DNA from: a virus
IMG/VR virus record: IMGVR_UViG_3300001472_000003
Location: 15,475-79,474 of that record
Strand: one strand, 5' to 3'
Length of the DNA stretch: 64,000 nucleotides
Positions 26,302 to 63,778 of this stretch are shown here, piece by piece. Under the pieces are notes generated by a model, which saw only the letters and a list, made by a program, of their open reading frames with translations, was not told where the DNA came from and searched no databases. Positions within the stretch are counted from its first letter, which is position 1; every line of letters begins with the position of its first letter. The translations under genes were made by a program, and so were the position numbers.

Positions 26302-26748
26302 TTATTTAGCTTTTTCTAGAGCTGGTAACATTCCAGGGAATGCTTCACTTACTAATTTATATGTAATATTTTTTATAGGACATTTTTTTTCTTTCATTCC
26401 TATTAATAATTTAGCATCATCTGGATGTACAAATTCAATCATCTGTAAAAACATTGTCTCTTTCTTAATGCGATGTAAATTAGGACTGCCACCAGATTCA
26501 GTTGTTAATAAGTGATTGGCTTTTCTAATTTCTTTATATATAAAAGTCTCAGCATTTATTGGTTCACCTGGTTTGTATGGTGGTTCTCCTTCTGGCAAAT
26601 CAAATACTGCTTTAGGATGAAATGTAAAATGTAAATAAGCTTGTAGATTAGGCACATGTTTTACATAATACTTTAATGCATCTGCTCTTTGTGTTTGGGG
26701 TTTTTTAGAGATGTCTTTTAACATCTGTGTAAATGTTGGTTTTGCCAT
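26302..26748 (-). CDS. DUF6433-like conserved phage protein
   Basis: 148 aa. PEGEPPYKPGEPINAE, LHRIKKETMFLQMIEFVHPD, DAKLLIGMKEKK and EAFPGMLP fit the pattern I recall for DUF6433, a family of T4-like marine phages. Function unknown. It lies between RNase H and tail genes, close to where T4 places helicase-loading functions. Confidence 0.7.
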   Translation of the reverse strand: MAKPTFTQMLKDISKKPQTQRADALKYYVKHVPNLQAYLHFTFHPKAVFDLPEGEPPYKPGEPINAETFIYKEIRKANHLLTTESGGSPNLHRIKKETMFLQMIEFVHPDDAKLLIGMKEKKCPIKNITYKLVSEAFPGMLPALEKAK

Positions 26749-27611
26749 TAGAATTCACCTATATTTTCCATTAAATTTTTTAGCTTATACTCAACAAAAT
26801 AATTAAATAATTTATCTCTTTTATTGATACTACTATTTATATAGGTATCAATGACCGATTTTTTAATATTTTGTGGTACATAATTTAAATCAATTAAGGT
26901 TTTATTTCTTACCCAATTGCGTGTAATCTCTTCATTAATTTTAATATCATCAACACAATTTAATATCTCCTCAAGCATCTTTTTTCTAAGAGGTCTTTGT
27001 CTGCTATTAATAAAGCAATCATCTTTAGATAATACATTCGGAATACCATCGCCACGATCACCTCTAGCTATATGTTCTAACAAGTAACCTTGAGGAGAAT
27101 CAGATTTAATCCATCTATTTCTTATAGGATCATATTGTTCAACGTTGGCATTTACTTGTAATTGTATAAAGTCTTTATCTGCAGATAATATAAGGATATA
27201 TTCTGTTGTACTATTCATAAGCTCAACACCATATTCCTGGCATAATGTGCCTATTATATCATCGGCTTCTGCACCAGCTATTTGCATAATCTTATATGGA
27301 AAATTATCAATAAGTTCTTGTTTTATTTTATCCATCTTTGCAAATAAAGCTGTCCAGTCTAATTCAGATTTCTGTCTAGCTACTTTTCTATGTGCTTTAT
27401 AATAAGGATAAAATTCTTTTCTCCAATATTTTTTATCATCACAGGCAAATACTAAATCACCATACTTACTGCCAAATTTATTTTTAAATCCACGTATTGT
27501 ATTAAGAACCATATGGCGCAACAGGTTCTCGGATATTTCTATATTAGTATGATTACCTATTTGCGCCATTAGATTCGCAATCATTACTTGATTCATATCT
27601 ACTATTATCAT
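26748..27611 (-). CDS. rnh: RNase H / 5'-3' exonuclease (T4 Rnh-like)
   Basis: 287 aa, close to T4 RNase H (305). MIIVDMNQ, LVFACDDKKYWRKEFYPYYK, AEADDIIGTLCQEYG and LILSADKDFIQLQ are the acidic metal-binding motifs of the FEN/T4 RNase H family. Removes RNA primers from Okazaki fragments. A promoter lies about 26 bp upstream. Confidence 0.9.
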   Translation of the reverse strand: MIIVDMNQVMIANLMAQIGNHTNIEISENLLRHMVLNTIRGFKNKFGSKYGDLVFACDDKKYWRKEFYPYYKAHRKVARQKSELDWTALFAKMDKIKQELIDNFPYKIMQIAGAEADDIIGTLCQEYGVELMNSTTEYILILSADKDFIQLQVNANVEQYDPIRNRWIKSDSPQGYLLEHIARGDRGDGIPNVLSKDDCFINSRQRPLRKKMLEEILNCVDDIKINEEITRNWVRNKTLIDLNYVPQNIKKSVIDTYINSSINKRDKLFNYFVEYKLKNLMENIGEF

Positions 27612-27636: not shown

Positions 27637-27665
27637 ATTATAACATATTAATGATAATAAATCAA
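27637..27665 (-). promoter_or_regulatory. sigma70-type promoter for rnh
   Basis: TTGATT (27660-27665), 17 bp, TATAAT (27637-27642), between the 34-aa peptide gene and rnh. Confidence 0.75.
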
Positions 27666-27670
27666 GTTAT

Positions 27671-27775
27671 TTAATTGGTTATTTTATGAATGCGATAATT
27701 TAGAACTTTATTTAATATCTCACGTTGATGATTACTAATCATTTTTTTAAATTGATATAGTGTGAAATAGTTCAT
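27671..27775 (-). CDS. 34-aa peptide downstream of a glutamine-riboswitch-like RNA
   Basis: MNYFTLYQFKKMISNHQREI, continuing basic to ITN. A strong GGGAGG ribosome site precedes the ATG. Known Downstream-peptide RNAs of marine cyanobacteria and phages likewise sit just before a short reading frame, which supports expression. The basic helical peptide is of unknown function; it could target nitrogen metabolism (inference). Confidence 0.65.
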   Translation of the reverse strand: MNYFTLYQFKKMISNHQREILNKVLNYRIHKITN

Positions 27776-27804
27776 AGCCACCCTCCCTTGTTAAAGTTTG
27801 AGTG

Positions 27805-27847
27805 CGTTCCTTCAGCGAATGCCTACTTCCGCCCTTTCGGGTGAACG
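27805..27847 (-). promoter_or_regulatory. Glutamine riboswitch (glnA / Downstream-peptide type)
   Basis: Minus strand: P1 CGTTC (27843-27847) pairs with GAACG (27805-27809). P2 is CCC/GGG closed by a GAAA loop (27832-27841). The conserved core CGGAAGTAGG (27822-27831) and CTGAAGGAACG (27805-27815) follow, with a short P3 (27821-27823 with 27814-27816). These match the consensus I recall for glutamine riboswitches. The CACCC at 27839-27843 can alternatively pair with GGGTG (27779-27783) beside the peptide's ribosome site, a possible switch. Confidence 0.8.
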
Positions 27848-27856
27848 TATACTTAT

Positions 27857-28087
27857 TTATGTATCATTGTTATTAGATATTTGTTTTATGGTGGTAAGAC
27901 TTTTTTTCACATCAACAATATTTTCATTCCCTATAAGATCAATTATTAATGATGTTACTCCAATATCATGATCTAATATTGCCATTTGCTCATTAAGTTT
28001 TATTAATTGTTTTTTGTAATAAGCCAATTCTTGTTGTTTTCTTAGTCTTGATTCAATTAAATCTGCTAATGATATTATTTTACTCAT
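27857..28087 (-). CDS. Small coiled-coil protein (76 aa)
   Basis: Helical with heptads (LRKQQELAYYKKQLIKLNEQ). Overlaps the HesB gene by an ATGA junction. Its stop overlaps a CATAAATA element that resembles a late promoter, possibly that of the riboswitch RNA. Confidence 0.65.
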   Translation of the reverse strand: MSKIISLADLIESRLRKQQELAYYKKQLIKLNEQMAILDHDIGVTSLIIDLIGNENIVDVKKSLTTIKQISNNNDT

Positions 28088-62403: not shown

Positions 62404-63030
62404 TTACTCACCAAAATAATATGGATTCTCAACTGTATTAAAATCAGAATCTTCTTTGTTAATTACGTTTTTATTTTCTATATCTAATTTAAAAATACGA
62501 TTAGCATCAATAGAATAACAATTTTTAAACATAGTAGAGGATATATTCATATCGCCATCAATAAATAATGGACTTATTTCATTTCTAAATATATTGATAT
62601 TATGTTTATAATACCATACACAACTAAAAGATCCATCGATATTATTAGGTGTTTTTAATTCAATTAATTGCTTTAATAATAATTTAGTATCCCATGAATA
62701 ATCAACATTATATAATGATTGTAATCTTTTAATTTCATATTCTTTTATTATACCATTATGCCATAACAATTGTCCTCCTATATCAGCAGGATGAATATTA
62801 TCATTATAATTGTCAGCTGTAGGTGCTTGTTGATGTACAATACAATAATGATTATCTGGTATTGTTATGCAATCATAGGGTAATGGGCCTAATCCTGTCT
62901 TAACCTCTCTTAGTAATGATGATGTATTATTAATATAAGTTATACTATGAGAGTAAGTACCTCTATATTCATTTAATTTAGCCAATTCAATTATTTTATC
63001 TGAGGAATATGATCCTACAATACTACACAT
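62404..63030 (-). CDS. gat: Class II glutamine amidotransferase (Gat)
   Basis: 208 aa. MCSIVGSYSSDK places the nucleophile Cys at position 2 after Met removal. LNEYRGTYSHSITY, HQQAPTADNYNDNIHPADIG and LLWHNGIIKEYE match the Ntn-type glutaminase domain. In phages such as 9g, a Gat domain fused to QueC makes deoxyarchaeosine; here the two are separate overlapping genes. Confidence 0.8.
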   Translation of the reverse strand: MCSIVGSYSSDKIIELAKLNEYRGTYSHSITYINNTSSLLREVKTGLGPLPYDCITIPDNHYCIVHQQAPTADNYNDNIHPADIGGQLLWHNGIIKEYEIKRLQSLYNVDYSWDTKLLLKQLIELKTPNNIDGSFSCVWYYKHNINIFRNEISPLFIDGDMNISSTMFKNCYSIDANRIFKLDIENKNVINKEDSDFNTVENPYYFGE

Positions 63031-63778
63031 TAATCATTTTCTCCCATGGTATATGTATTTGATATGGTATTGGGTCCTTCATACCTGCTTTTGCAAAACC
63101 AGCTATTCTTTCAGCACATGAAGGACATACACTACATGATGACCCGAATTCATTCGGATTATAACATGTAAGTGTAGATTCAAGTAAATATGTACTATTC
63201 ATTTCTTTACATATTTCTATTTCTTGTGCTTTAGATAAAAGGCTAAACGGTGCCATTATTTCTACTTTATGTGTTCTATTTTGAATAGCTACAGCATTCA
63301 ATGAGTCAACAAATTTTTGTGATGTATCCCAATATCCATATTCATCATGTACTTGAAGGCCAGTAAAAAGGTATGAAGCATTAGAAGCTTCTGCTTGTGC
63401 CATAGTAAGACTTAGTAATATTAAATTACGAAATGGCACATAAGTCTTTGGTTGTGGATCTCCTAACACATCTTTAATAGTCGGCATTGCTACATTGCTA
63501 CCTGATATATTAGCTGATATAGGTTCAGCAATTTCTCCTAGTATACTGAGATCTAGAATCTTATGTCCTATGCCTAGTAACTCACAAAGTTTAGAAGCTT
63601 TAGTAAGTTCTATACTTTGTTTTTGTCCATAATTATATGATAATGCATATACATTTTCTTTACCATATCTTTCAACAAGCATCATAGTCATAATAGAAGA
63701 ATCTAATCCGCCTGATAATACAGCCAATACATTTTTATTTGTATCCGGCAACTTACTGAGTGCTTCTTTTAAATTCAT
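63023..63778 (-). CDS. queC: 7-cyano-7-deazaguanine synthase (QueC)
   Basis: 251 aa. The ATP loop LSGGLDSS (21-28), YVPFRNLILLSL, FTGLQVHDEYGYWDT and the zinc site CSVCPSCAERIAGF are diagnostic QueC features. Makes preQ0 from CDG with ammonia and ATP. Overlaps gat by 8 nt. FolE, QueD and QueE are not in the window. Confidence 0.95.
   Translation of the reverse strand: MNLKEALSKLPDTNKNVLAVLSGGLDSSIMTMMLVERYGKENVYALSYNYGQKQSIELTKASKLCELLGIGHKILDLSILGEIAEPISANISGSNVAMPTIKDVLGDPQPKTYVPFRNLILLSLTMAQAEASNASYLFTGLQVHDEYGYWDTSQKFVDSLNAVAIQNRTHKVEIMAPFSLLSKAQEIEICKEMNSTYLLESTLTCYNPNEFGSSCSVCPSCAERIAGFAKAGMKDPIPYQIHIPWEKMINV

Follow-up and report, generated by a model that had tools for sequence, protein, structure and literature searches.

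The 64 kb stretch of phage DNA analyzed here (the window) carries on its minus strand a glutamine riboswitch aptamer set between a T4-type late promoter box and a short basic ORF (Table 1). We consider it likely that together these form a self-contained unit for late regulation in a T4-like phage of probably marine origin, in which a hairpin (P4) running from the equivalent of C60 of the solved aptamer to the edge of the Shine-Dalgarno (SD) sequence would act as a translational ON switch for the encoded peptide. A glutamine riboswitch in a non-cyanobacterial phage is not new; what appears to be new is the unit itself, comprised of late promoter, aptamer, C60 hairpin, and tiny basic peptide, which is widespread among phages. 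We found no description of such a late promoter-aptamer-peptide unit in the open-access literature.

Table 1. Features of the riboswitch-peptide locus, with positions numbered from the first letter of the window
Feature	Position	Strand	Basis or remark
T4-type late promoter -10 box CATAAATA	27854..27861	(-)	Sequence; one mismatch to consensus
Glutamine riboswitch aptamer RF01739	27801..27849	(-)	cmscan; comprises P1, P2, P3
Aptamer P1, CGTTC / GAACG	27847-27843 / 27809-27805	(-)	Sequence
P4 5' arm CACTC	27800..27804	(-)	Covariation, permutation tests; 27804 = C60 of the solved aptamer
Shine-Dalgarno GGGAGG	27782..27787	(-)	Sequence
P4 3' arm GGGTG	27779..27783	(-)	Overlaps the start-codon-side edge of the SD
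34-aa basic peptide MNYFTLYQFKKMISNHQREILNKVLNYRIHKITN	27671..27775	(-)	dN/dS, conservation at site
Sigma70-like promoter TTGATT-17-TATAAT	27637..27665	(-)	Scan, 10/12 match; between peptide and exonuclease
5'-3' exonuclease/RNase H-like gene (phrog_107)	26748..27611	(-)	Downstream of peptide

A cmscan search of the window with all 4227 Rfam families recovered a single match, to RF01739 (Glutamine), which spans the full model (1-53) with 53.9 bits against a gathering cut-off of 35 (E 4.5e-9); the 149.5 kb virus record contains one copy. The covariance model of RF01704 (Downstream-peptide), run on the local 401 nt, had no match even at E<=1, and the aptamer is therefore of type 1 (glnA) rather than type 2. 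The first-pass annotation had recognized a glnA/Downstream-peptide pattern from the letters of P1, a GAAA-capped P2, the junctions, P3, the SD, and the ORF, all of which lie on the minus strand as described; the Infernal runs with both Rfam models uphold the glnA assignment and lead us to reject membership in the Downstream-peptide class. In minus-strand letters, the aptamer further displays a P2 of the form CCC-GAAA-GGG, CGGAAGTAGG, a short P3, and CTGAAGGAACG, and the model alignment places in it the conserved RF01739 junctions CGGAAGUA and GAAG along with the C following P1. For the wider set of elements considered below, the junctions were prescribed by the pattern used for searching, whereas the C that follows P1 does not vary among the aligned elements. 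By its sequence, the window element is thus a real member of the known glutamine riboswitch class, with ligand binding predicted from the family.

The upstream box is TATAAATA-like and the record encodes a gp55-type late sigma factor (phrog_234, E 4e-57); the related NATAAATA precedes the genes for the portal, the major head protein, and other structural-region or late genes of this phage. Transcription is predicted to start at about position 27848, i.e., at about the first base of the aptamer. Among the matches listed, TAAATA occurs within 40 nt upstream in 56 of 94 phage elements, compared with 3.3% of random windows. Its distance to the aptamer is mostly 11-15 nt, and it is present in 39 of the 46 listed elements that combine P4 with a peptide lacking the YRG motif (see below).

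The ORF begins 29 nt after the aptamer, in agreement with the earlier reading of a 34-codon basic ORF with a GGGAGG ribosome-binding site about 30 nt beyond it. Using the downstream exonuclease gene (phrog_107) as a marker, we located the same site in other contigs: one (L127) has an element identical to that of the window, and in three further ones the exonuclease is 92% (L128 and L129) or 75% (L130) identical to that of the window. The late box, aptamer, SD, and peptide are all retained in these four, with late boxes of the same kind in L128 and L130 and compensatory changes in P2 and P3, and the set is missing from contigs whose exonuclease is at most 65% identical. The dN/dS ratio is 0.33 for the window/L128 pair and 0.28 for window/L130; among the matches listed, the pooled value for the phage peptide families is 0.34 over 16 pairs. 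The persistence of riboswitch and peptide at the same site in related contigs, together with the dN/dS of 0.33, identifies the 34-codon ORF as a real gene under purifying selection. AlphaFold2, given a 21-sequence alignment, models the peptide as one helix across residues 3-33 (pLDDT 93), whose amphipathicity is not above that of shuffled peptides. Searches of PHROG, Pfam, and NCBIfam gave no match to it, and DNA and tblastn searches of the annotated phage collection gave no meaningful relatives of the element or peptide. A terminator was looked for 3' of the peptide gene and not found.

The hairpin P4 directly adjoins P1 with no linker. In 34 aligned elements among the matches listed, P4 is paired in 97% of cells and three of its five pairs have substitutions in both partners, and sliding the partner by 1-3 columns lowers whole-structure pairing from that 97% to 32-51%. 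Swapping arms between loci in a permutation test reduced 4-bp Watson-Crick matches from 51 to 21±3 among the matches listed; in a set whose peptides are less than 50% identical, 20 of 39 retain four Watson-Crick pairs as against 7.9±2.2 upon swapping, with the signal peaking at offset 0 and showing no excess from offset 2 onward. MAFFT had offset the 3' arm in three alignment rows, including that of the window, by two columns, and the window pairing was therefore read by hand: CACTC/GGGTG forms five pairs, one of them G-U, consistent with the aptamer-constrained fold. Ensemble folding of 96 elements among the matches listed likewise pairs the SD with the post-aptamer spacer (mean 0.51) rather than with the aptamer (0.05). 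The same hairpin (CGCCTC...GAGGCG) recurs in 44 of 49 bacterial, mostly cyanobacterial, elements. The first-pass annotation had proposed a translational switch in which a CACCC within the aptamer pairs with the GGGTG beside the SD. That complementarity exists, and the covarying P4 at the SD favors a translational platform in general outline; the aptamer CACCC is nonetheless rejected as the anti-SD, since the ensembles disfavor this pairing and the covarying partner of GGGTG is the CACTC arm.

In crystal structures of the aptamer, the G23-C60 pair forms only when glutamine is bound (PMC11477058; PMC5393176). Given that C60 is also the first base of P4, we propose that the two pairings compete and that the element is an ON switch. 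Late transcription by the phage machinery (gp55/gp33/clamp) would begin at the late box, placing the RNA 5' end at about the aptamer. Without glutamine, the CACUC following P1, whose first base is the C60 equivalent, would form a helix with the GGGUG at the SD edge and restrict initiation; with glutamine, C60 would be recruited by the aptamer to form the G23-C60 pair, the closing pair of P4 would be lost, and its opening would permit translation of the 34-aa basic helical peptide. Glutamine binding by the window aptamer, as well as the C60 competition and the ON direction, are what we infer from these considerations. The accessibility model does not confirm the sign of the switch: with the aptamer forced and C60/A61 blocked, SD accessibility rises in 19 and falls in 18 of 96 elements among the matches listed, a sample drawn by one strict sequence pattern and containing related sequences.

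The opposite polarity is a distinctly less probable reading, in which glutamine would stabilize P1, stacked flush on P4, thereby locking the SD so that the peptide is made only at low glutamine. The abutting of P1 and P4 accords with it, as does the near-equal SD accessibility in unconstrained and aptamer-folded ensembles (0.38 versus 0.39), but a C60 that is engaged with G23, as when ligand is bound, is not available to the P4 3' arm. Moreover, the type 1 switches of gifB/IF17 in Synechocystis are ON switches (PMC6316151), and the hairpin is shared with cyanobacterial elements. Family membership is read from sequence, which leaves some room for a degenerate or captured aptamer that has lost glutamine binding or recognizes a related ligand; this is very improbable in view of the intact consensus positions of P1, J2-3, and J3-1, and because the relatives differ at paired and loop positions only, and compensatorily so.

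It might also be argued that the small ORF is a mere regulatory leader peptide and that the real target is the exonuclease gene, which is next on the same strand in an order maintained in the four related contigs. We regard this as improbable: a sigma70-like promoter separates the two genes, and boxes resembling it lie upstream of the exonuclease in riboswitch-lacking relatives (L131, L136), which suggests that the exonuclease has a predicted promoter of its own, although such sites are no more numerous in the region than in shuffles. Other phages also carry the same kind of unit at unrelated positions, and the peptide families are conserved as proteins.

A strict pattern (CGTTCA..CGGAAGTA..GAAGGAACG) retrieved at least 120 viral stretches from IMG/VR; one (L114) was discarded as a chance hit in GC-rich DNA. 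Among the matches listed, 96 of 97 distinct spacers have an ATG and SD after the aptamer with a short ORF, L114 being the exception, and the aptamer-to-ATG distance in about 95 phage elements is usually 20-35 nt. Of the peptides of the listed matches, 71 lack a YRG motif, with a median length of 35 aa, a net charge of +7, and a pI of 10.4. The other 25 contain it; some of those tested were DUF4278-like, one above the Pfam cut-off. Many of the short non-YRG peptides, the window and Melnitz types included, share a near-gapless core at low identity, which suggests a single ancestry. The gene psbA was found in 5 of 37 tested records among the matches listed, and the elements of psbA-bearing records (L007, L028, L033, L055, L063) have a GTAAAGGAG spacer in place of P4. 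A TTTAC...GTAAAGGAG spacer, apparently a second expression platform, likewise replaces P4 in cyanophage-like L007, L028, L033, L050, L063, and their relatives.

Several variations on this organization were seen. Tandem pairs of glutamine aptamers precede one small peptide in L015, L020, L037, L059, L073, and L087, as well as in L097, L104, L110, L113, L118, and L120. The unit lies directly after a tRNA-like 3' end (L069, L076) or a tmRNA (L326, the Melnitz phage), and in other contigs after terminator-like hairpins, suggesting preferred insertion spots. The glutamine motif is also present in SAR11, SAR86, SAR116, and other proteobacterial contigs, some of which may be phage DNA. Phage-type riboswitch-peptide units occur in contigs of the bacterial collection (L212, L221, L227, L244, L265, L291, L306, L307), several of them labeled SAR86, Pelagibacteraceae, or other proteobacteria; these could be either viral contigs placed in bacterial bins or genuine copies in the hosts.

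The gene content of the record (DnaB-like helicase, UvsX, DNA polymerase, clamp loader, clamp, RegA-type repressor, terminase, gp20-type portal, gp23-type head protein, and the gp55-type sigma factor) identifies the carrier, as judged from these similarities, as a T4-like phage; a phrog_385 regulator is also present. Its portal is closest to those of Sinorhizobium phages phiN3/phiM12 (57%), followed by Stenotrophomonas phage DLP_6 and cyanophages (53-54%), and its DnaB is about equally close to cyanophages and DLP_6 (~61%). Neither psbA (PF00124), sought in the record, which may be incomplete, nor clear cyanophage relatives were found, although not all cyanophages carry psbA; going by these genes, no feature marks the host as a cyanobacterium. 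The marine origin is probable from the company of the element rather than from the record label. A glutamine synthetase gene was sought in the phage and not found. We also noted a 7-deazaguanine (queuosine-type) pathway with QueC-, QueD-, and QueE-like proteins and GTP cyclohydrolase (window 63023-63778 (-), L123 4270-6306 (-)).

RF01739 switches govern the glutamine synthetase inactivating factors in cyanobacteria, and several cyanobacterial RF01739 loci encode IF7A-like small basic proteins (NCBIfam E 1e-10, below the cut-off). The phage peptides have no sequence or profile similarity to IF7 (hhalign probability of 0.1% for the window peptide against the IF7-like set), and homology of the window peptide to IF7/IF17 or DUF4278 was rejected, there being no sequence or profile match. 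As a guess, the peptide would act on a host nitrogen-metabolism protein, as the cyanobacterial glutamine synthetase inactivating factors do. By this analogy, we advance as a tentative idea, less likely to be right than wrong, that many marine T4-like phages use a late glutamine-gated basic helical peptide to bind and retune a host nitrogen enzyme such as glutamine synthetase; if true, such peptides would be the phage counterpart of the inactivating-factor system. Dozens of other such viruses carry the unit, and they probably tune one small protein to the host nitrogen supply. The unit brings the scattered reports of phage glutamine riboswitches, including that in the cultured Melnitz, into one architecture with a defined gene product and, if confirmed, would mean that phages read the nitrogen status of their host during late infection and respond by making just one small protein. 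The C60/P4 competition offers a simple candidate for translational control by this riboswitch class.

A 2018 review restricted the glutamine riboswitch class to cyanobacteria, and the earlier annotation held that a non-cyanobacterial host would widen the known range. That extension had already been published for phages Melnitz (OM43) and Mosig (SAR11) (PMC9004378). The same paper describes glutamine riboswitches in pelagimyophage assemblies and in one phage of Prochlorococcus; T4-like cyanophages also carry glutamine riboswitches (PMC9602691, PMC9964418). The present unit shares with Melnitz, Mosig, and S-CREM1 the presence of RF01739 in a T4-like marine phage. In Melnitz, the riboswitch (L326 1485-1533, 52.8 bits) lies just after the tmRNA, which it was published as controlling (PMC9004378). 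However, 26 nt past this aptamer, an unannotated 32-aa basic ORF, MTLYQQWCYLKAQKEYRRRQKILMYFRIRLKG (L326 1556-1651 (+), MZ577097.1 46469-46564), starts with an SD and P4 where the annotation has an antisense CDS. The P4 and peptide are of the same general form as those of the window, and the published link to the tmRNA may be wrong. In cyanophage S-CREM1, a 48-aa ORF similarly follows the annotated glnA element at a distance of 26 nt, but this peptide begins with a YRG motif joined to a basic helix-like tail. The peptides of L327 (728-874 (+)) and L033 have a YRG (DUF4278-like) start and a basic helix-like tail, a layout that recalls IF17 with its DUF4278 start and second domain.

In cyanobacteria, type 2 (Downstream-peptide) riboswitches govern short ORFs that encode 17-100 aa (PMC2864571). 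They resemble the window unit in the short downstream ORF, but differ in the RF01704 aptamer, which the window element does not match. The inactivating factors IF7/IF17 are also small basic proteins, some encoded behind RF01739 with the same hairpin, but without detectable homology to the phage peptides. With respect to the cyanobacterial type 1 systems (glnA RNA, e.g., gifB/IF17 of Synechocystis), the window unit differs in its phage context, its T4-type late promoter, and a peptide matching neither DUF4278 nor IF7, while sharing the aptamer sequence and structure, the small-protein target, and, in the cyanobacterial loci examined, the hairpin from C60 to the Shine-Dalgarno.
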